Shown: positions 2,075-38,281 of the stretch, one piece after another
Layout: every line of letters begins with the position of its first letter
Numbering within the stretch: position 1 is the first letter of the stretch
IMG/VR virus record: IMGVR_UViG_3300046389_000491
Span: 1-38,773 of that record
Direction: 5' to 3' (one strand)
Source: a virus
Length of the DNA: 38,773 nucleotides
Notes under the pieces: model-generated
Databases searched by the model: none
What the model saw: the letters and a program-made list of their open reading frames with translations, nothing else
What the model was told of the DNA's origin: nothing
Made by a program: the position numbers and the translations under genes

Positions 2075-2366
2075 AGACCTAATAATAGGGGACGGTGCCA
2101 AAGAAGAATTAAAATTATTATCTAATAAATTAGGTTTATTAGAAACAAAAATAGTTGTTAAAGATAGTGTTATATTTAATTTAAATAAAAGTGTTATGAA
2201 TTTTGAAAATATATTATTAGCAAAATCTGACCAATTAGCTATATCACAAGAATTATCTCTAAAATTACAAACAGATTTAAAAAAACAAAAAGCCAAAACT
2301 AAATTGTTTCAATTAGGTTCGGGCGCATTAGTAGTTGGAGGAATAGTACTACTATTAGCAAAATAA
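1956..2366 (+). CDS. secreted coiled-coil protein with C-terminal membrane segment, candidate spanin partner
   Basis: The start ATG is embedded in the preceding gene in another frame, with a 119-base overlap. The 136-residue product begins with a clear Sec signal peptide: a KK N-region, a Leu/Met-rich core, and a probable cleavage after GFSQ near residue 20, typical of Bacteroidota. A helical coiled-coil region (about 50-115) follows, then a hydrophobic Gly-rich segment at residues 117-135. There is no cysteine anywhere, so it is not a classical lipid-anchored outer-membrane spanin. A C-terminal membrane segment recalls unimolecular spanins, but those begin with a lipobox. The overlap and paired topology still suggest a lysis role. 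The stop is 1 base before the terminase gene. Confidence 0.6.
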   Translation: MKKLIPLILLMMMSLQGFSQSVIDTTKIQLKKPIARLVIKDLIIGDGAKEELKLLSNKLGLLETKIVVKDSVIFNLNKSVMNFENILLAKSDQLAISQELSLKLQTDLKKQKAKTKLFQLGSGALVVGGIVLLLAK

Positions 2367-2367
2367 T

Positions 2368-3939
2368 ATGTCAGATTTAAAAAAAGTAATACGTCAAGAA
2401 TATTTAAAATGTGCTAAGGATCCAGTGCATTTTATGCGTAAATATTGTTATATACAACACCCACAACGTGGACGTATACAATTTAATTTATATCCATTCC
2501 AAGATAAAGTATTAACGCTATGGCGTGATAATCCTTATTCTATTGTATTAAAATCTAGACAGTTAGGTATATCTACTCTATCAGCAGGTTATTCTTTATG
2601 GTTAATGACTTTCCATAAGGATAAAAACGTACTTTGTATTGCAACAAAGCAGGACACAGCTAAAAACATGGTAACAAAGGTAAAATTTATGTATGAAAAT
2701 TTACCATCATGGCTTAAAATAGATGCACCTGAAAATAATAAATTAACACTACGATTAGCAAATGGATCCCAAATTAAAGCAACATCAGCTTCAAGTGATG
2801 CCGGTAGATCAGAAGCAGTATCTTTACTACTAATTGATGAGGCAGCCTTTATTGAAAATATTGGTGAAATATGGGCATCAGCACAACAAACACTAGCAAC
2901 TGGGGGTGGTTGTATAGCATTATCTACACCTTATGGTACAGGTAATTGGTTTCACCAAACATGGTCAAGAGCAGAAGCAGCAGAAAATGACTTTTTACCT
3001 ATCAAATTACCTTGGTATGTACACCCAGATAGAGATGAAGCATGGAGAAAAAGACAAGATGAATTATTAGGTGATCCTAGAATGGCAGCACAAGAATGTG
3101 ATTGTGATTTTAGCACCTCTGGTGATATTGTATTTTATCCTGAATATATAGAATACTATGAAAAATCATTTGTTAAAGACCCCTTAGAAAGAAGAGGTAA
3201 TGATCAAAATTTATGGGTTTGGGAACAAGCAGATTATTCAAGAAATTATATGGTAGTAGCTGATGTATCTAGGGGTGATGGTAAAGATTATTCTGCATTT
3301 CATGTTATAGATACAGAAACAAATGTACAAGTAGCTGAATATAAAGGACAAATTGGAACTAAAGAATATGGACACTTATTAGTAGGTATAGCTACAGAAT
3401 ATAATGAAGCAATGTTAGTAATAGAAAATGCTAATATTGGGTGGGCAACTATACAAGTTGTTATTGATAGACAATATCAGAACCTCTACTATTCACAAAA
3501 GGGTGGAGAAGCCAATGTTAATTCGTATTTTGATAAATATCAAGATCATTCAAAAATGGTTCCTGGATTTACTATGTCATCAAGAACGAGACCTATGGTA
3601 ATTGGTAAATTTCAAGAATACATAGGTGATAAAGGAGTAACAATACAATCTAAAAGATTAGTAGAAGAAATGAAAACATTTATATGGCGTAATGGAAGAC
3701 CAGAAGCTCAATCAGGATACAATGATGATTTAGTTATGGCTTTTAGTATTGCTATGTACATTAGAGATACAGCATTAAAATTTAAACAAAGAGGAATAGA
3801 CTTAACCAGACAATCCTTAAATAATATGCAAGTTAATAGAACAGCATATCAAGGGAGTTATGGTAATAACCAACAAATGAAAAATCCTTATCAAATTGAT
3901 ACAAATAAGGGTAAAGAAAACATTGATTGGTTATTATAG
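2368..3939 (+). CDS. terL: terminase large subunit (T4 gp17 family)
   Basis: This is the DNA-packaging motor ATPase and headful nuclease. The 523-residue protein is shorter than T4 gp17 (610). The N-terminal ATPase domain has a Walker A-like loop in KSRQLGIST (residues 62-70), a Walker B VSLLLIDEAA with D157 and E158, and an STP coupling motif near 186-188. The C-terminal RNase H-like nuclease domain shows D299 in ADVSRGDGKD, E353 in VIENANIGW and D453/D454 in GYNDD, matching the three metal-binding acids of the family. It would act at the portal vertex with the product of the next gene. The small terminase subunit was not recognised nearby. Confidence 0.97.
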   Translation: MSDLKKVIRQEYLKCAKDPVHFMRKYCYIQHPQRGRIQFNLYPFQDKVLTLWRDNPYSIVLKSRQLGISTLSAGYSLWLMTFHKDKNVLCIATKQDTAKNMVTKVKFMYENLPSWLKIDAPENNKLTLRLANGSQIKATSASSDAGRSEAVSLLLIDEAAFIENIGEIWASAQQTLATGGGCIALSTPYGTGNWFHQTWSRAEAAENDFLPIKLPWYVHPDRDEAWRKRQDELLGDPRMAAQECDCDFSTSGDIVFYPEYIEYYEKSFVKDPLERRGNDQNLWVWEQADYSRNYMVVADVSRGDGKDYSAFHVIDTETNVQVAEYKGQIGTKEYGHLLVGIATEYNEAMLVIENANIGWATIQVVIDRQYQNLYYSQKGGEANVNSYFDKYQDHSKMVPGFTMSSRTRPMVIGKFQEYIGDKGVTIQSKRLVEEMKTFIWRNGRPEAQSGYNDDLVMAFSIAMYIRDTALKFKQRGIDLTRQSLNNMQVNRTAYQGSYGNNQQMKNPYQIDTNKGKENIDWLL

Positions 3940-28677: not shown

Positions 28678-29361
28678 ATGCCATATTATCCTTCATCCCA
28701 AGTCAAAACCAATCTATACACTAATGGAAGTGAACTTTCTATTAATGGGGCTGACTATAAAGGATTTTATTACATAAATTCAAAAGGAGAATATTATAGT
28801 GGAGCTACGCCCCAAGCAAATGGTAGTAGACAACTTGAACCTAAAAATGGGGTTAATAATGAAAGTCCATTATATTTAGAAAATTTAGACCGAAAACCTG
28901 AAAGTGGTAGAATATCATCTTTTTATAATATAGATTATCCTTACTACGGTGCTACAGGAAGAAATTATAATACTACAAATAATGCCCCTATCAAACCAGT
29001 ACAAGAAATTTGTATACCAACAGAAAGTGATTATGAATTAGGAGAGTACCAAAGATACTTTTTAAAGAAAAATAATGAAGTACAATATATAGAAGTAAAA
29101 GGAAAACAACAACAACTATATAAGGATAAAAGTGGTAAAGTACAATGGCAATTATATACTCCAATTACTATTAATTGGGTTTTAGAGGGTAAATTAGAAG
29201 ATGTTTATAATACAAATAAAAATATTGTAAAATTATATGAAACCCAAAATAAAATAATGGGGTTTGTAAGTTATTTTAATAATCGATTTACTAAATTTCA
29301 TATTGAAGAAACTCCATCAAGAAAACAATCAACCGCTTCTCCAAGAATAAGTGGTTACTAG
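28678..29361 (+). CDS. baseplate-associated structural-type protein, unknown
   Basis: This 227-residue protein starts MPYYPSSQVKTNLYTNGSEL and soon has YKGFYYINSKGEYYSG. I recall this opening (a tagged NLYTNG then a Y-x-G-x-Y-Y motif) from structural proteins beside the hub genes of marine T4-like phages. The central part is beta-rich with Tyr-rich strands, and a helix of NTNKNIVKLYETQ type follows near 180. It has no cysteine pattern or membrane segment. It starts 2 bases after the hub stop and ends the virion gene block. A peripheral baseplate role is inferred. Confidence 0.6.
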   Translation: MPYYPSSQVKTNLYTNGSELSINGADYKGFYYINSKGEYYSGATPQANGSRQLEPKNGVNNESPLYLENLDRKPESGRISSFYNIDYPYYGATGRNYNTTNNAPIKPVQEICIPTESDYELGEYQRYFLKKNNEVQYIEVKGKQQQLYKDKSGKVQWQLYTPITINWVLEGKLEDVYNTNKNIVKLYETQNKIMGFVSYFNNRFTKFHIEETPSRKQSTASPRISGY

Positions 29362-29399: not shown

Positions 29400-30668
29400 A
29401 TGTACTGGTTAGTAGAAGAAGAAGATCAAATAAAATTTTTAATTAATAGTGGTTACAAACAAGCATTTATTGAGGTAATCCCTTATAGTGACCACGTACA
29501 CCCCACATTAAATAGCATTAGTTTAGTGTATATTAGACCGATTAATGCAAGTAAAGGCTATATGTTATGCGTTTCACATAGTGAAACATTGAATGCGTTA
29601 AATACGCGTATAGACGAATTGATAAATAAGTTTGATATTTTGTATTGTCGCGATAAAAAGGAGATGTTACATTATTTTCCAAACAAAGCTCTTTACGACA
29701 TAAATGTGCCTCCTACTACGTATATACGACCATATACAAAAGCACATGAGGTATTAAATTATAAACATAAAGATAACCCAAGTATTAATACTTTTATTCC
29801 AGTTGTTAAACACTATGAAATGTGTGAGCAAATATACAATGATTTAAAAGATAATATTAACCATAAAAAAACAGACTATGACGAATTTTTTAACCATAGA
29901 GTATCCGTGGTGTTCAACGCCATCGAAAGGATGGGAATACAAATACATCCCGAACAATTCAAAAAACACTTTTATGATGAGAGTAGACCCAAAGTTTACA
30001 CTCAATACAACCTTAAAACTACAACAACGAGACCATCAAACAAATTTAAAGGAGTAAACTATGCAGCACTTAATAAGGAAAATGGATGTAGAAAATCGTT
30101 TGTACCAAGCAATGATATTTTGTACGAAATTGATATTAGCGCTTATCATCCTAGTTTGTCTTGTCGTCTCATCGATTATAATTTTGCCACTGTGGATATT
30201 CACAGTCATTTACAACAACTCTATGGAGTAAGTTACGGTAAATCAAAGGAACTGACATTTAAGCAATTATACGGAGGAGTATTTGATCAATATAAACATA
30301 TCGAATTTTTTAAGAAAATTGATATATACGTAAAAGAACTCTGGTATAAATTTCAAAGCGACGGAGAGATAACGTGTCCGGTTTCAAAATTTGTTTATAA
30401 AAAGGATACGTTAGAAAACATGAATCCGCAAAAGCTGTTTAATTATTTGTTACAAAACTTGGAGACGTCAATGAACGTTCGTATACTATGGGACGTACTT
30501 CGTTTATTAAGAGGTAAAAAAACAAAACTGGTATTATATACTTATGATTCGTTTTTGTTTGATTGGGATAAAGAAGAAAAAGAATTAATAGGAGACATAA
30601 AGAATGTTTTCAAAAAATATAAATTTAACATAAAAACAAAAGAAGGTTATGATTACGACTTTAAATAG
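29400..30668 (+). CDS. diverged family A DNA polymerase-like protein (palm/fingers)
   Basis: This is a 422-residue protein. The N-terminal ~160 residues are not recognised and show no clear exonuclease acids. The C-terminal half follows the family A polymerase order. TTTTRPSNKFKG (207-218) with NYAALNK and CRKSFV corresponds to the TGR...N...R region. Motif A has D245 in YEIDISAYHPSL. The fingers helix KELTFKQLYGG matches K-x3-F-x3-YG (K283, F287, Y291). Motif C has D383 in LVLYTYDSFLF. The usual O-helix Arg is absent, and the motif A steric-gate Glu is His250. Upstream ATGs at 29381 and 29392 run into stops, so 29400 is the start. It may be a replicative, repair or regulatory polymerase; activity is not assured. 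Confidence 0.65.
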   Translation: MYWLVEEEDQIKFLINSGYKQAFIEVIPYSDHVHPTLNSISLVYIRPINASKGYMLCVSHSETLNALNTRIDELINKFDILYCRDKKEMLHYFPNKALYDINVPPTTYIRPYTKAHEVLNYKHKDNPSINTFIPVVKHYEMCEQIYNDLKDNINHKKTDYDEFFNHRVSVVFNAIERMGIQIHPEQFKKHFYDESRPKVYTQYNLKTTTTRPSNKFKGVNYAALNKENGCRKSFVPSNDILYEIDISAYHPSLSCRLIDYNFATVDIHSHLQQLYGVSYGKSKELTFKQLYGGVFDQYKHIEFFKKIDIYVKELWYKFQSDGEITCPVSKFVYKKDTLENMNPQKLFNYLLQNLETSMNVRILWDVLRLLRGKKTKLVLYTYDSFLFDWDKEEKELIGDIKNVFKKYKFNIKTKEGYDYDFK

Positions 30669-31116
30669 ACCCTTAAATACGTATAAGATGAATTATGATG
30701 TTGAAACATCATTAAATAATATAGGAGATTTGAATAACAAGCTGTTTTGTACATTTACCACGCTAGAGCACTTAGATGATCTAATCCAGAATATAACATC
30801 CCAATACGTAATTATTTATAATAAGATGTTTGTTTTAGAGATTGTCGGAAGTGATGAATATGTTGTTACATACAACGTAGACCAGGGTAATGTTCACTCT
30901 ATTCCAGATAATACTATTCTAGTACATAGAAAAAAGGAGTCTAATACCTTATACACTATTAATGCTTTAAATGAATTAATTAAAAAGCTTAATAATGGTG
31001 TTGTTGATACTAAATTTAAAGTAGATTGGCAACATTATAGAAATTGTGTTTTACTTACCCAACACAATGAATTGAATCAATTAAATACAAAAATACACAA
31101 AATAATCGAAGTATAG
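30649..31116 (+). CDS. protein of unknown function between polymerase-like and ssDNA-binding genes
   Basis: The longest form (155 residues) starts inside the end of the polymerase-like gene with a 20-base overlap; an ATG at 30688 gives a 142-residue form free of overlap. The sequence is Asn/Thr/Ile-rich with alternating strands (SQYVIIYNKMFVLEIVGSDE, EYVVTYNV) and a C-terminal helical part. It has no known motif, signal peptide or membrane segment. Its place before the gp32-like gene suggests a replication or recombination accessory role, but nothing in the sequence shows which. Confidence 0.6.
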   Translation: MITTLNRPLNTYKMNYDVETSLNNIGDLNNKLFCTFTTLEHLDDLIQNITSQYVIIYNKMFVLEIVGSDEYVVTYNVDQGNVHSIPDNTILVHRKKESNTLYTINALNELIKKLNNGVVDTKFKVDWQHYRNCVLLTQHNELNQLNTKIHKIIEV

Positions 31117-31191: not shown

Positions 31192-32031
31192 ATGGATTTA
31201 TCAATGCTTAAACAGAAGTTGGATACGCTCCAACAAAAAACACCTGCTGGTGGTGCCAAAAGAGATTATTCTCTTACATTTTGGAGACCTACAGTAGGAA
31301 AACAACAAATTAGAATTGTGCCTAGTGCATTTAATTCTAATAACCCATTTACAGAATTAAAATTCTATTATGGTATTACAAACAAGGTGATGTTATCACC
31401 TGAAACTTGGGGTGAAAAAGACCCGATTGCTTTATTCGCTAGTAAACTTAGAGAAGAATATAGCAAAGAAAATTATCTACTTGCTAAAAAGTTAGATGCA
31501 AAAACTAGAATTTTTGCTCCGGTTATTGTTAGAGGAGAGGAGGACAAAGGAGTTCGACTATGGCAATTCGGAAAGCTAATATATGAAGAATTACTTTCAC
31601 TAGCTGTAGATGATGAAATTGGAGATTACACTGATATCGTTTCAGGTAGAGATCTTACAATTGAAACAGTAGGACCAGAATCAACAGGTACTCAGTATAA
31701 TAAATCATCAGTGAGAGTTAGATTAAAAGAAACTCCATTAAGTGATGATGCTGAATTAGTTGATAAGTGGATTTCAGATCAACCAAACCCAACAAAAGAA
31801 TTCAAACAATTTACTTTTGATGAAATGAAGTCAGCATTAGAAAAGTGGTTAGCGCCAGAAACTAATGATGATACAGATGGTGATGTTACACCTGCTGCAG
31901 TTGAAACACCAGCTAAGTCTAATTTTAGTTTAGATACTACAAAAGATAATGTTAAGAAAAATAAAGCAGATGCTTTTGATACATTATTTGATGATAAAAA
32001 GAGTAACGAACCAGATGATCTTCCTTTCTAA
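31192..32031 (+). CDS. 32: single-stranded DNA-binding protein (T4 gp32-like)
   Basis: This is a 279-residue protein (T4 gp32: 301). The N-terminus has a helical LKQKLDTLQQK, then LTFWRPTVGKQQIRIVPS, the FW(R/K)PT...IR(I/F)(V/L)P pattern of phage gp32 cores. The C-terminal 70 residues are acidic and flexible and end EPDDLPF, close to the DDIPF tip of bacterial SSB, which recruits partner proteins. It contains no cysteine at all, so the zinc-binding site of T4 gp32 is missing. It is the first gene of the replication block after a candidate promoter; the recombinase gene follows 2 bases after its stop, as expected since gp32 and UvsX work together. Confidence 0.87.
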   Translation: MDLSMLKQKLDTLQQKTPAGGAKRDYSLTFWRPTVGKQQIRIVPSAFNSNNPFTELKFYYGITNKVMLSPETWGEKDPIALFASKLREEYSKENYLLAKKLDAKTRIFAPVIVRGEEDKGVRLWQFGKLIYEELLSLAVDDEIGDYTDIVSGRDLTIETVGPESTGTQYNKSSVRVRLKETPLSDDAELVDKWISDQPNPTKEFKQFTFDEMKSALEKWLAPETNDDTDGDVTPAAVETPAKSNFSLDTTKDNVKKNKADAFDTLFDDKKSNEPDDLPF

Positions 32032-32033
32032 AT

Positions 32034-33107
32034 ATGGCAAGAAAAGTATCAAAGTCTCTCTCGGCAGCAGTGTCTGCCGAGATTAAGACAAAATTTGATT
32101 TAAATAAATTTAAAGCCACTAAAGGTTTAGATAAAAACGTCAAATTTAAGGAACAACAATGGATACCACTATCTCCTGCATTTCAGGAAATATCTGGAGT
32201 ACCAGGTATTCCAATGGGACATATTTCATTACTTAGAGGACATTCTGATACAGGTAAAACAACTGCTCTACTTGAAGCAGCAGTATCAGCACAAAAAATG
32301 GGTGTATTACCTGTTTTTATAATTACTGAGATGAAATGGAATTGGGAACATGCCGCTCAAATGGGATTAGAAGTAAAACTAATCAAAGATGAGGAAGATA
32401 ATGTTGTAGATTATGAAGGTAATTTCATTTATGTTGATAGAGAAACATTACATACAATTGAAGACGTAGCAGCATTTATTATGGATCTACAGAATGAACA
32501 GAAAAAAGGTAATTTACCTTATGATTTAGCGTTCTTCTGGGATTCAATTGGATCTATTCCTTGTGCAATGTCAGTTGAAAAACTGAAAAACAACAATGAA
32601 TGGAATGCAGGAGCAATGTCAACACAATTTGGTAACACAGTTAATCAAAGTATTGTAATGTCACGTAAAGAATCATCACCATATACTAATACACTTTGTG
32701 CTATTAATAAAGTATGGACTGCTAAAGCAGAATCACCTATGGGTCAACCTAAAATGATGAACAAAGGTGGAATGGCAATGTGGTATGATGCAACTTTCGT
32801 AGCTACTTTTGGTAATGTATCAAATGCAGGAACATCTAAAATTAAAGCAATTAAAGGTGGTAAGCAAGTAGAATGGGGTAAAAGAACAAATTTACAAATT
32901 GATAAAAACCACGTTAATGGTATGCAATCAAGAGGTAAAATTGTTATGACAAACCACGGTTTTATTACTGATACTGACAAGGATAAAAATGCATATAAAA
33001 AAGAACATGCTGATGAATGGTCTAAAATCTTAGGAGGAGGAACATTCACAATCCAAGAAGACGAAGAAGATCATACACCAGTATTATTTGATTCTCAGGA
33101 CATTTAA
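32034..33107 (+). CDS. uvsX: UvsX/RecA-type recombinase
   Basis: This strand-exchange ATPase acts in recombination-dependent replication and repair. The 357-residue protein is slightly shorter than T4 UvsX (391). The P-loop is GHSDTGKTT (69-77), the catalytic Glu is E98 in FIITEMKW, and Walker B is LAFFWDSIGS (164-172, D169). The block INKVWTAKAESPMGQPKM fits the L2/DNA-binding region of UvsX-type proteins. A C-terminal acidic tail (EDEEDHTPVLFDSQDI) is present. The start lies 2 bases after the gp32-like stop, so both are co-expressed. Confidence 0.93.
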   Translation: MARKVSKSLSAAVSAEIKTKFDLNKFKATKGLDKNVKFKEQQWIPLSPAFQEISGVPGIPMGHISLLRGHSDTGKTTALLEAAVSAQKMGVLPVFIITEMKWNWEHAAQMGLEVKLIKDEEDNVVDYEGNFIYVDRETLHTIEDVAAFIMDLQNEQKKGNLPYDLAFFWDSIGSIPCAMSVEKLKNNNEWNAGAMSTQFGNTVNQSIVMSRKESSPYTNTLCAINKVWTAKAESPMGQPKMMNKGGMAMWYDATFVATFGNVSNAGTSKIKAIKGGKQVEWGKRTNLQIDKNHVNGMQSRGKIVMTNHGFITDTDKDKNAYKKEHADEWSKILGGGTFTIQEDEEDHTPVLFDSQDI

Positions 33108-33116
33108 AAAGAAAAC

Positions 33117-34157
33117 ATGAAGCATAAAGATTTATTTAAGTTGCTGGACGAAGTTCAGGAGCAAGGGGAAGAAACTACTCCAAAAAGACATGATAAAGTA
33201 TTAATTTTAGATGGATTAAATCTATTTTTTAGAAACTTTGCAATGATGAATATGGTAAATCCTGATGGGGTTCATATTGGAGGGTTAGGAGGGTTCTTTC
33301 GTTCTTTAGGCGCCATGATTAGACAAACAAATCCAACATCTGTTTATGTAGTATTCGACGGAGCAGGTTCAACAGTAAATCGTAAGAACCTGCTCTCCGA
33401 ATACAAAAGTACAAGAAATTTACAACGAATTACTAATTGGGAAGCATTTGACAATTTAGAGGAAGAACATGACTCAAAAATTGACCAAATAGTGCGTATA
33501 ATCCAGTATTTAAAGCTATTACCTGTTAAAACCACTATATTGGATAAAGTAGAAGCTGATGATATTATAGCCGTGTTAGCTGAAAAACTAGTAGAAAAAC
33601 ATAATTCAACTTGTTTTATAGTATCTTCAGATAAAGATTTCTTACAATTAGTTACTGATAAAATTATTGTATATAGACCAATGGAGAAAGAATATTATAC
33701 TCCAAAAGTTGTAGAAGAAAAAGTAGGTTTATTACCATCGAATTTTTTATTACATAAAGTATTATTAGGGGATAAATCAGATAATATTCCAGGTATAAAA
33801 GGATTAGGTGCTAAAGGTATATTTAAAAAGTTTCCTGAATTAAAAACACATGACTTAACATTAGATGACATTTTTGACATTTGTGCTAGGAAATTTAAGG
33901 ATCATGTCGTATATTCACGCATAATCCAAGATCAAAAACGGATTGAAACTAATTATAAAGTTATGGATTTAAGTATTCCAATGATTGATGATAAAGGAAA
34001 GGAACATATTGATGATCTAATAGTTGAGGAATTACCTGAATTTAATGCTGAAATGTTTGTTTCATTTTATAATGAAGACAAATTAGGGGGAATGATTAGA
34101 AATCTAGATACATGGTTAAAAGATATTTTTTCACAATTCCCCATTTATAAACAATAA
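33117..34157 (+). CDS. rnh: 5'-3' exonuclease / RNase H flap nuclease
   Basis: This structure-specific nuclease removes RNA primers and flaps. At 346 residues it is near T4 RNase H (305). The metal-site acids are visible in order: D32 in ILDGLN, D81 in VFDG, E146/D148/D149 in EADDI, D172/D174 in SSDKDF, and D219/D222 in GDKSDN. The helix-hairpin-helix follows as IPGIKGLGAKG (224-234). The arrangement is the same as the N-terminal nuclease of bacterial DNA polymerase I. This is notable because the window also encodes a polymerase-I-like domain as a separate gene, about 2.4 kb upstream. Confidence 0.94.
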   Translation: MKHKDLFKLLDEVQEQGEETTPKRHDKVLILDGLNLFFRNFAMMNMVNPDGVHIGGLGGFFRSLGAMIRQTNPTSVYVVFDGAGSTVNRKNLLSEYKSTRNLQRITNWEAFDNLEEEHDSKIDQIVRIIQYLKLLPVKTTILDKVEADDIIAVLAEKLVEKHNSTCFIVSSDKDFLQLVTDKIIVYRPMEKEYYTPKVVEEKVGLLPSNFLLHKVLLGDKSDNIPGIKGLGAKGIFKKFPELKTHDLTLDDIFDICARKFKDHVVYSRIIQDQKRIETNYKVMDLSIPMIDDKGKEHIDDLIVEELPEFNAEMFVSFYNEDKLGGMIRNLDTWLKDIFSQFPIYKQ

Positions 34158-34174
34158 AAACTATAATATAGGTT

Positions 34175-35560
34175 ATGACATTACAAACACTGAATCAATA
34201 TGGTCCTGATTTCCAAATCAAAGCAATATCAGCATTGCTTACCCATAAAGAATTATTAGTTAATATCCATGATATTATCAGTGAAGAATTTTTTGAAAAT
34301 AGTGCACATAAGTGGGCTGTAAAAGAAATATTAAAATATTACGATAAATACCATACAACACCTTCATTAGATGTTTTAAAAGTAGAGTTAAAAAAAGTTG
34401 ATAATGATGTTCTACAAGTATCAATTAAAGAACAATTAAAACAGGCTTATGTATCATCTGATGAAGATTTAAAGTATGTACAAGAAGAATTTACTAATTT
34501 TTGTAGAAACCAACAATTGAAGAAGGCCTTAATGTCGTCTGTGGACTTATTGAAAGCAGGCGACTTTGATGGTATTAGATATATTGTTGATGGAGCTTTA
34601 AGAGCGGGACAAGATAAAAACGTAGGACATGAATATGTTAAAGATATTGAAGAAAGGTATAGAGAAAATTCGAGGACAACTATACCTACACCTTGGGAAA
34701 AGATCAATAATTTACTACAAGGTGGATTGGGAAATGGAGATTTTGGTCTCATATTTGGTAATCCAGGAGGTGGTAAATCTTGGTCATTAGTAGCTATTGG
34801 AGGTGAAGCTGTTAGATTAGGATTTAATGTAATTCACTATACTTTAGAGTTAGGTGAAGATTATGTTGGAAAAAGATATGACGCCTTTTTCACTAATATA
34901 CCAGTTAATAAAACTCATCTACTTAGGCCTAAGGCAGAAGAGATCATACCTCAATTACCAGGTAGGTTAATAATTAAAGAATTCCCCACAGGTCGTGCGA
35001 CTATGTCAACAGTTGAATCACATATTAAGAAAGTAGAAAGTATGGGAGTTAAAGCTGATTTAGTAATTATTGATTATGTTGACCTCCTTTCATCAGGACG
35101 TAAAAATAGGGAGCGTAAGGACGAAATTGATGATATTTATGGCAGCACAAAAGGCCTAGCTCGAGAATTGAACATACCTATTTGGTCAGTATCTCAAGTA
35201 AATAGAGCTGGTTCGAATGATGACATTATAGAAGGAGATAAAGCAGCTGGATCTTATGATAAGCTGATGATCACTGACTTTTGTATGTCTCTTTCAAGGA
35301 AAAAAGAAGATAAAGTAAAAGGAACTGGTAGATTTCACATTATGAAAAACAGATATGGAACTGATGGTCTAACATTTGCTGTTAAAGCAGATACTTCTAC
35401 AGGCCACTTTGAAGTACATAACTATAATACGGATCTAGACGAACAAGAAAATTTCACTCCTGCTACTAAGTCAAATAAGTTTGATACTGACACAGACAAA
35501 TTTGACAAACAGAAACTTCGTGAGTTATATGACCCAGGTTTCTTTGAACTAAGTAAATAA
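34175..35560 (+). CDS. 41: replicative DNA helicase (T4 gp41/DnaB family)
   Basis: This hexameric 5'-3' helicase works at the replication fork. The 461 residues match T4 gp41 (475). The N-terminal helical domain spans about 1-150. The RecA-like core has PTPWEKINNLLQGGLGNGD (171-189), Walker A GNPGGGKS (195-202), Walker B LVIIDYVDLL (296-305, D300), and motif H3/H4-type IPIWSVSQVNRAG. The arginine-containing end FHIMKNRYGTDG is typical. A Thr/Asp/Lys-rich tail ends the protein. No primase gene was recognised in the window. Confidence 0.95.
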   Translation: MTLQTLNQYGPDFQIKAISALLTHKELLVNIHDIISEEFFENSAHKWAVKEILKYYDKYHTTPSLDVLKVELKKVDNDVLQVSIKEQLKQAYVSSDEDLKYVQEEFTNFCRNQQLKKALMSSVDLLKAGDFDGIRYIVDGALRAGQDKNVGHEYVKDIEERYRENSRTTIPTPWEKINNLLQGGLGNGDFGLIFGNPGGGKSWSLVAIGGEAVRLGFNVIHYTLELGEDYVGKRYDAFFTNIPVNKTHLLRPKAEEIIPQLPGRLIIKEFPTGRATMSTVESHIKKVESMGVKADLVIIDYVDLLSSGRKNRERKDEIDDIYGSTKGLARELNIPIWSVSQVNRAGSNDDIIEGDKAAGSYDKLMITDFCMSLSRKKEDKVKGTGRFHIMKNRYGTDGLTFAVKADTSTGHFEVHNYNTDLDEQENFTPATKSNKFDTDTDKFDKQKLRELYDPGFFELSK

Positions 35561-35580: not shown

Positions 35581-36567
35581 ATGGCAAAAACATCATTATT
35601 ACAAGAACGTATCGTTTACAAACCCTTTGAATATCAGGAGGCATCGGATTATTGGTTAAAACAACAACAAGCACATTGGTTACATACAGAAGTACCTATG
35701 ATGTCTGATGTTAATGATTGGAAACAGAATCTTACTGATTCTGAAAAGAATATTATAGGAACTATATTAAAAGGATTTGCTCAAACTGAAACTGTAGTAA
35801 ATGATTATTGGTCAACATTAGTTACTAAATGGTTTAGAAAACCAGAAGTAATTAAAATGGCTGTTACATTTGGTGCTTTTGAAACTATTCATGCAGAAGC
35901 CTATTCTTTATTAAATGAGGAATTAGGATTAGATAATTTTGCTGAATTTTTAGAAGATGAAGCAACAATGAATAAAATAGAAACATTAATGCAAGTAAGA
36001 GATTCTCATGATGGTACTCCTAACTGGCATGAAAGAGCTAAATCATTAGCAATCTTTTCTGCATTTACAGAAGGTGTAAATTTATTTTCTTCTTTTGCAG
36101 TATTACTTTCTTTTAAATTAGATAATAAACTTAAAGGAGTAGGACAGATTGTAGAGTGGAGTATTAGAGATGAATCATTACATTCTGAAGCAGGATGTTG
36201 GTTATTTAGAACACTAATGCAAGAACACCCAGAATTTAATACACCAGAATTACAAGCTGATATTGAAGAAGCAGCTAAGTTATCTTTAAAACTAGAATTA
36301 GATTTTATTGATAAAGTGTATGAAATGGGAGATTTACAAGGTTGTCCTAAATATGATTTAATTTCATTTATTAAACATAGAGTAAATACTAAAATGAGTG
36401 ATTTAGGATATGGACCAATTGTAAACGGAATAGATAAAGAAGCAGTACAAAGAATGAGTTGGTTTGATAATTTATCAGGTGGAAAACAACATACAGATTT
36501 CTTTGCAAATAGAGTAACAAATTATAGTAAAGGTGTTCAAAATTGGGATGCCGCATCAATATTTTAA
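35581..36567 (+). CDS. nrdB: ribonucleotide reductase class I, beta subunit (NrdB)
   Basis: This is the radical-generating subunit that makes deoxynucleotides with NrdA. The 328-residue protein has the full metal ligand set: E70 in AQTETVV, E101 and H104 in ETIHAEAY, E164 in FTEGVNLF, and E198 and H201 in RDESLH. Tyr108 is at the radical position, four residues after H104, as Y122 follows H118 in the E. coli protein. The C-terminus after the last helix contains FDNLSGGKQHTDFFANRVTNY-type sequence, which joins the alpha subunit. The NrdA start codon lies 1 base after its stop, reversing the A-B order of many hosts. Confidence 0.95.
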   Translation: MAKTSLLQERIVYKPFEYQEASDYWLKQQQAHWLHTEVPMMSDVNDWKQNLTDSEKNIIGTILKGFAQTETVVNDYWSTLVTKWFRKPEVIKMAVTFGAFETIHAEAYSLLNEELGLDNFAEFLEDEATMNKIETLMQVRDSHDGTPNWHERAKSLAIFSAFTEGVNLFSSFAVLLSFKLDNKLKGVGQIVEWSIRDESLHSEAGCWLFRTLMQEHPEFNTPELQADIEEAAKLSLKLELDFIDKVYEMGDLQGCPKYDLISFIKHRVNTKMSDLGYGPIVNGIDKEAVQRMSWFDNLSGGKQHTDFFANRVTNYSKGVQNWDAASIF

Positions 36568-36568
36568 T

Positions 36569-38281
36569 ATGGATAATAACTTACAAGTAGATTATAGTAA
36601 TTGGGAAGCTGGAAAGCAATACCCAATATGGATGGATGAAATTTCTTTAGCAACAATTTCAAAAGGTTATTTACTACCTGGAGAAACTGTAAGAACAGCA
36701 TATAAAAGAGTAGCAAATGCTTCAGCAGCTAGACTAAAAAAACCAGAATTAGCAAATAAATTCTTTAAATATATTTGGAATGGTTGGATTGGATTAGCAT
36801 CTCCTGTTATATCAAATATGGGAACTGATAGAGGTTTACCAATATCATGTTTTGGTATTGATACGCCAGATTCAATACGTGGAATCGGTTTAACTAACGC
36901 AGAACTAATGAAATTAACAGCATCCGGCGGAGGTGTAGGTATTTCGTTATCTCGTATTAGACAACGTGGAGAATATATTTCAGGTAATGGTAAGAGTGAA
37001 GGTGTAGTACCTTGGGCTAAAATTTATGATTCATCAATTATTGCAACTAATCAAGGAAATGTAAGAAGAGGAGCAGCATCAGTTAATTTAGATATTGAAC
37101 ATGGTGATATTGAAGAATTTATGCAAATTCGTAGACCGAAGGGTGATCCAAATAGACAATGTTTAAACTTACATCAATGTGTTGTTGTAGGAGATTCATT
37201 TATGAGGAAATTAGAAGCAAGAGACCCAGAAGCAATGAATAGATGGGCTACTGTTTTAAAATCAAGAATGGAAACAGGTGAACCTTACATTATGTACAAG
37301 GATAATGTAAATAAAAATAACCCTATAGCTTATAGAATGCATAATTTAGATGTTTCTATGACTAACATTTGTTCTGAAATTACATTATTTACAGATGAAG
37401 AACACTCATTTATTTGTTGTTTATCTTCTCTTAATTTAGCTAAGTGGGAAGAATATAAAGACACAGATTGTATTGAGACTGCAATTTGGTTTTTAGATGG
37501 TGTAATGCAAGAATTTATTGATAAATCAAATGGTAAAGAAAGTTTAAAACGAACTCATAAACATGCAGCTAAAGGTAGAGCTTTAGGTTTAGGTGTAATG
37601 GGATGGCATACTTTCCTTCAACAAAAAGGATTACCATTTAATTCTGTAGCATCTACAGTTCATACTAGAAATATTTTTAATAAAATTAGAAGTAAAGCAG
37701 AATCAGCATCTATGAATTTAGCAGCTGAATATGGAGAACCATTATGGTGTAGAGGAACTGGTATGAGAAATACTCACTTATTAGCAGTAGCCCCAACAGT
37801 ATCAAATTCTGTTATTTGTGGTGGTATTAGTGCAGGAATTGAACCCCTACCTGCTAATGTTTATACTTTTAATGGTGCTAAAGGTACTTTTATTAGAAAA
37901 AATAAAGTATTAGAAGCATTACTTGAAGAAAAAGGACAAAATAAAACTAAATGGTGGGATCAAATGCTACAAGAAGGTGGATCAGTATTAGGTTTACCAG
38001 ATAATATACTATCTGCAGAAGAAAAAGAAGTATTTTTAACCTTCTCAGAAACAAATCAATTAGAATTAGTAAAACAAGCAGCTGAAAGACAAAAATATAT
38101 AGATCAAACTCAATCTTTAAACTTATCATTTGACCCTAATGATTCTCCTAAATGGATTAATCAGGTTCATATGGAAGCTTGGAAATTAGGTGTAAAAACT
38201 TTATATTACCTACGAACTGATTCAGTAATCAAAGGTGATTTAGGATCTAGAATGGCAGATTGCATCAGCTGTGATGGATAA
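36569..38281 (+). CDS. nrdA: ribonucleotide reductase class I, alpha subunit (NrdA), short form
   Basis: The frame is open upstream to 36533, but the ATG at 36569 (MDNNLQVDYSNWE) follows the NrdB stop by 1 base and is preferred. The product has 570 residues, against about 760 in E. coli. Active-site residues are C94 in PISCFG, N266/C268/E270 in NICSEI and C284 in CCLSSLNL. The radical-relay pair Y546/Y547 is in LYYLRT, and the C-terminal shuttle pair is C565/C568 in CISCDG. The N-terminal ATP cone is missing, so overall dATP feedback inhibition is probably lost, as in several phage enzymes. The central barrel appears complete. Confidence 0.95.
   Translation: MDNNLQVDYSNWEAGKQYPIWMDEISLATISKGYLLPGETVRTAYKRVANASAARLKKPELANKFFKYIWNGWIGLASPVISNMGTDRGLPISCFGIDTPDSIRGIGLTNAELMKLTASGGGVGISLSRIRQRGEYISGNGKSEGVVPWAKIYDSSIIATNQGNVRRGAASVNLDIEHGDIEEFMQIRRPKGDPNRQCLNLHQCVVVGDSFMRKLEARDPEAMNRWATVLKSRMETGEPYIMYKDNVNKNNPIAYRMHNLDVSMTNICSEITLFTDEEHSFICCLSSLNLAKWEEYKDTDCIETAIWFLDGVMQEFIDKSNGKESLKRTHKHAAKGRALGLGVMGWHTFLQQKGLPFNSVASTVHTRNIFNKIRSKAESASMNLAAEYGEPLWCRGTGMRNTHLLAVAPTVSNSVICGGISAGIEPLPANVYTFNGAKGTFIRKNKVLEALLEEKGQNKTKWWDQMLQEGGSVLGLPDNILSAEEKEVFLTFSETNQLELVKQAAERQKYIDQTQSLNLSFDPNDSPKWINQVHMEAWKLGVKTLYYLRTDSVIKGDLGSRMADCISCDG

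Follow-up and report, generated by a model that had tools for sequence, protein, structure and literature searches.

A divergent kind of family A polymerase, divPolA1, was described in 2024 with the immuto phages named as carriers, and in the passages of that paper dealing with it the enzyme has a truncated thumb and a dead exonuclease and accompanies a regular polymerase, which may belong to family A, B or C (PMC11348598). In a full-text literature search the name divPolA1 was found only in this paper and its preprint. The same source, in the passages concerned, presents divPolA2 of the barbaviruses, which like divPolA1 is family A-like, comes in addition to a regular polymerase and lacks an ordinary thumb; it is described as having an unrelated N-terminal globular domain and a variable gene context, and on this description it is set apart here (PMC11348598). 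By sequence comparison, the polymerase analysed in the present study is a member of divPolA1, with 35.2% identity to immuto gp001 at 96% coverage (E 4e-72), and since divPolA1 was published with immuto as an example, the kind is already known. The two share the catalytic residues of the palm, the truncated thumb, the inactivated exonuclease and the replication genes downstream (gp32-like, UvsX, 5' nuclease, DnaB and ribonucleotide reductase), and the protein studied here differs from the immuto group in nothing essential. What is added to the published account is a universal histidine at the steric gate, a derived form of motif A and a linked gene for a 155-aa partner, together with members in the Microcystis phage Mel-JY01 and the 484-kb phage LR756508 and hundreds of relatives in IMG/VR.

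The window, i.e., the whole stretch of DNA that was analysed, is a 38.8-kb fragment from a marine, T4-like phage. Its upstream part encodes a T4-like terminase, gp20 portal, gp23 capsid and tail sheath, which mark a phage of the T4 superfamily, and after these structural genes the replication block opens with the divPolA1 ORF (Table 1). The divPolA1 gene is linked to a gp32, UvsX, 5'-nuclease and DnaB operon, and the separate 5'-3' exonuclease that had been proposed nearby is indeed part of this block. The order of polymerase, single-strand DNA-binding protein, recombinase and nuclease-sized ORF is kept in most relatives, and in immuto the same order extends through DnaB and ribonucleotide reductase. 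Directly 5' of the polymerase gene lies a 227-aa ORF (28678-29361), for which Pfam and PHROG searches returned no match. Relatives also occur on four MAG contigs binned as Flavobacteriales or Winogradskyella, hinting at flavobacterial hosts; a further MAG contig carrying a relative was binned with Nitrosopelagicus, possibly in error.

Table 1. Replication block of the window and landmarks within the divPolA1 gene (window positions).
Feature	Position	Strand	Evidence
divPolA1, predicted small family A DNA polymerase, 422 aa	29400..30668	+	ORF; fold; 35% identity to immuto gp001 'DNA polymerase family A'
Predicted degenerate 3'-5' exonuclease domain, residues 1 to ~125	29400..29774	+	Bst alignment; residue tally; equivalences placed by hand
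Site of predicted missing thumb subdomain, residues 175-211, IERMG to TTTTR	29922..30032	+	Landmark distances; model
Motif A DISAYHPSL, D245 and steric-gate His250	30132..30158	+	Sequence; residue tally
Motif B / O helix KELTFKQLYGG (K283, F287, Y291, G292)	30246..30278	+	Sequence; landmarks; residue tally
Motif C YDSF (D383)	30543..30554	+	Sequence; residue tally
155-aa partner gene, matching no known family	30649..31116	+	20 nt overlap with polymerase gene
gp32-like single-strand DNA-binding protein	31192..32031	+	PF08804 43.4 bits, phrog_1192
UvsX/RecA-like recombinase	32034..33107	+	phrog_97 E 6.9e-15
5'-3' exonuclease (Pol I 5'-nuclease type)	33117..34157	+	PF02739 122 bits
DnaB-like replicative helicase	34175..35560	+	phrog_19 E 9e-80
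Ribonucleotide reductase small subunit	35581..36567	+	PF00268 E 3.9e-62
Ribonucleotide reductase large subunit	36533..38281	+	PF02867 E 1.1e-99

The polymerase gene looks orphaned because single-sequence searches see nothing: as a single query, the window protein retrieved no polymerase from Pfam, PHROGs or PDB sequences. A profile of its close relatives likewise found no match among PDB sequences. The Pfam family PF00476 gave no match to the window protein and only weak ones to 8 of its 23 close relatives (best 7.5e-4), and it was above cut-off for immuto gp001 and reached E 3e-6 for the LR756508 homologue. An AlphaFold2 model of the 422-aa ORF, built on an alignment of 23 relatives, was obtained with a pLDDT of 86.9 and a pTM of 0.86, and among the Foldseek matches listed from the PDB all the top ones were family A polymerases, including an apicoplast polymerase (E 3.9e-16, the lowest) and Klenow (1kfd, query TM 0.75). 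VIA-align superposed 389-394 of the 422 residues on the Bacillus Pol I large fragment with Z 24-25 (about 25), and the alignment to Bst places model residue 1 on Bst residue 300, in the exonuclease-like domain, and runs from there through to the C-terminus. The profile of the polymerase was also matched by hhalign to that of E. coli, T7 and immuto PolA (E 1.3e-7). By predicted fold, profile and residue tally, the ORF is a family A DNA polymerase, as the original prediction had proposed from its motifs; the reading frame itself is real, and its dN/dS of ~0.15-0.2 relative to moderately diverged relatives indicates that the gene is under purifying selection.

The proposal of a stand-alone palm does not survive the model, in which divPolA1 retains a dead exonuclease domain and fingers together with the palm. 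That no exonuclease would be recognisable is correct for the sequence and wrong for the fold, which the model contains and which superposes from residue 1 onwards. Its carboxylates are gone: at the ExoI positions of Pol I D355 and E357 stand I24 and V26, while the exoII and exoIII equivalences were set by hand. Sequence and model together describe a 3'-5' exonuclease domain that has kept its fold and is predicted to be catalytically dead. IERxG and TxR lie 35 residues apart, compared with 127 in E. coli Pol I, ~90 residues are absent at the position of the thumb, and the sole helix that the model places within residues 183-229 is short (184-190); judged by these landmarks and the model, the thumb is deleted in divPolA1. 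The fingers are shorter as well, motif A and the lysine of motif B being 38 residues apart versus 53 in E. coli Pol I. Compared with Klenow and Bst, divPolA1 shares the order and fold of exonuclease, fingers and palm, motifs A, B and C and the equivalents of R668, R682, N845 and Q849, but differs in the absent thumb, the shorter fingers and the replacements E710 to His, R754 to Tyr, R841 to Lys and H881-D-E to Y-D-S. The exonuclease domain of Bst is likewise inactive. T7 gp5 resembles divPolA1 as a family A polymerase that works with a small partner, thioredoxin, and is without a 5' nuclease domain, which a separate protein supplies, yet its exonuclease is active and its thumb, to which the partner binds, is complete.

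All motifs lie where they were first placed, with T209-x-R211, N220-x-A-x-L and R231 ahead of motif A, the K283-x3-F287-x3-Y291-G292 spacing in motif B and D383 in motif C. Among 107 distinct relatives, D245, H250, K283, F287, Y291, G292, Q352 and D383 are invariant, as are the equivalents of E. coli D705, K758, F762, Y766, G767, Q849, R668 and D882, where equivalences to Pol I were derived from the motif alignment and not from coordinates. Both peculiarities singled out by the original prediction recur in the group: the equivalent of the steric-gate residue E710 is His in 107/107, and at the position of the O-helix arginine R754, 104 sequences have Tyr and the other 3 have Arg. The R841 equivalent is always Lys, that of H881 always Tyr and that of E883 always Ser or Ala. 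In distant members motif A reads DYDAFHLRL (LR756508), DFDGYHLRL (immuto) or DYDAFHIKL (Mel-JY01), which corresponds to DYSQIELRL of family A except that His takes the place of Glu. On these alignments, DISAYHPSL is a late, derived form of motif A, and its likeness to family B is convergent.

A family B polymerase was found in 14 of 18 longer divPolA1 contigs from IMG/VR (6/8 and 8/10), mostly as two ORFs, of ~560-590 aa and of 310-324 aa, while immuto has a 778-aa PolA besides divPolA1 and Mel-JY01 an 855-aa PolB. The presence of a full-size polymerase in most longer relatives identifies divPolA1 as an additional polymerase, so that the idea of a stand-in for gp43 is not supported; this evidence comes from relatives, the window being a 38.8-kb fragment with its own replicase outside view. 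Of the two ORFs of a split PolB, one carries the exonuclease and motifs A and B, and the other motif C; in one relative (G002) they overlap by 4 nt (L087:499-2181 and 2178-3110). PolB is also split in nine further relatives and unsplit, at 880 aa, in one. The 484-kb phage (LR756508.1) carries PolB ORFs (frames of 1022 and 625 aa), a Pol III alpha match and divPolA1, that is, three polymerase families in one phage. A T4-type sliding clamp (PF02916, PF09116) was not detected in three near-complete relatives from the same set, in immuto or in Mel-JY01, although divergent clamps could be missed in such searches. Most of these clamp-negative, near-complete relatives carry a family B polymerase.

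We give about an even chance to the reading that divPolA1 is an active, thumb-deleted family A polymerase, which carries out distributive, short-patch synthesis beside the replicase. Polymerisation would follow the two-metal mechanism, with D245 and D383 as the catalytic aspartates and the triphosphate held by K283. An enzyme that lacks thumb and proofreading would be distributive and, as such, suited to the filling of short patches, which might be Okazaki gaps, recombination intermediates or lesion sites, while the main replicase works alongside. The 155-aa partner and/or gp32 and UvsX are putative tethers on DNA, and in combination with the separately encoded 5' nuclease the system would resemble Pol I split into pieces. 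Because the equivalents of the triphosphate-binding R754 and of H881 and E883 are replaced and that of R841 is Lys, the activity could be weak or altered.

The roles could also be reversed, with divPolA1 as the main polymerase of the replisome (on one of the strands, for instance) and the 'regular' polymerase as the accessory, which we regard as unlikely. The gp32-UvsX-5' nuclease-DnaB context of divPolA1 is constant and the regular polymerase switches family between genomes, in line with the published description, which in the passages at issue has divPolA1, and not the regular polymerase, in the constant replication neighbourhood (PMC11348598). However, the absence of a thumb and of a proofreading active site would be odd for the replicase of a ~160-kb genome, and the relatives keep a PolB with the sequences of the exonuclease domain and of motifs A, B and C. 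A divPolA1 without catalytic activity, acting as a decoy or as a structural subunit, is improbable: several nucleotide-contacting residues are replaced, the exonuclease domain is dead and the thumb absent, but both metal-binding aspartates and the equivalents of Lys758, Phe762, Tyr766, Gly767 and Gln849 are invariant in 107 sequences, which is more than a structural role would require.

Replacement of the Glu gate by His, together with Tyr at the R754 position, could instead point to a ribonucleotide-tolerant polymerase that makes primers or synthesises RNA, an explanation that we rate as quite improbable. The palm is common to family A and T7-type RNA polymerases, which is consistent with such a function, and no DnaG zinc ribbon above cut-off was found in Mel-JY01 or LR756508. 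On the other hand, the top structural matches are DNA polymerases, and His, being bulky, could still provide a gate. A DnaG primase is annotated in immuto, and the DnaG zinc ribbon is weakly matched in two IMG/VR relatives, so that a separate primase seems to be present there and divPolA1 is not favoured as the phage primase. Least of all is divPolA1 a hybrid of families A and B, as had been suggested by the resemblance of DISAYHPSL to D-x2-S-L-Y-P-S-I and of YDS to DTDS, which is scarcely credible given that hhalign of the polymerase profile with T4 gp43 returned a probability of 0.1% over 16 stray columns, against the E-value of 1.3e-7 with PolA, that motif spacing and the motif A of deep members are of the family A type, and that the top structural matches, among those listed, are all to family A.

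The partner ORF begins before the polymerase gene ends and is read in a different frame, and similar overlaps are seen in nearly all relatives. In a tblastn search of 50,697 phage records, partner and polymerase matched the same six records, in which the partner lies just downstream of the polymerase, in LR756508 with one ORF between. The partner was present and downstream in 207/207 testable loci, fetched with either protein as query, some of which share contigs, and the five loci without both genes are contig or stretch ends; in public genome contigs, from MAGs labelled mainly Flavobacteriales, the pair is likewise found together. Occurrence in the same six records and the constant downstream position suggest that polymerase and partner form a two-gene unit. 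No account of the partner gene was found in the passages of PMC11348598 that describe divPolA1. Relative to immuto the partner is conserved at 55% and the polymerase at 35%. The C-terminal half of the partner is very conserved (NTILVHRKKESNTLYTINALNELIKKLNGG). PHROG and other family searches did not match the protein to a known family, and its AlphaFold2 model is an alpha/beta structure of low confidence (pLDDT 56). None of the fold matches of this model was strong (Z 6.3 at most), and they were left out of the interpretation. Synteny with T4, where regA lies beside gene 43, suggested RegA as a candidate, which was rejected on an hhalign probability of 0.4% versus 57 RegA sequences and the lack of a PF01818 match; a helical thumb supplied in trans is disfavoured by the low-confidence alpha/beta model, which has no helical hairpin.

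A bolder version, which we consider a long shot, makes divPolA1 one of two obligate subunits of a polymerase and the 155-aa protein the other. The partner would then take over the thumb's grip on DNA and the conserved His gate would alter the choice of sugar, and as a result the primers or patches laid down or extended by the pair would contain ribonucleotides. If this were true, the two-subunit enzyme would be a new architecture within family A. For divPolA1 as a whole, the unchanged retention of a thumb-less, non-proofreading polymerase beside replicases that switch among families A, B and C points to a separate and constant job in phage DNA metabolism, and direct handles on what that job may be are offered by the partner gene and by the steric-gate histidine common to all 107 relatives.
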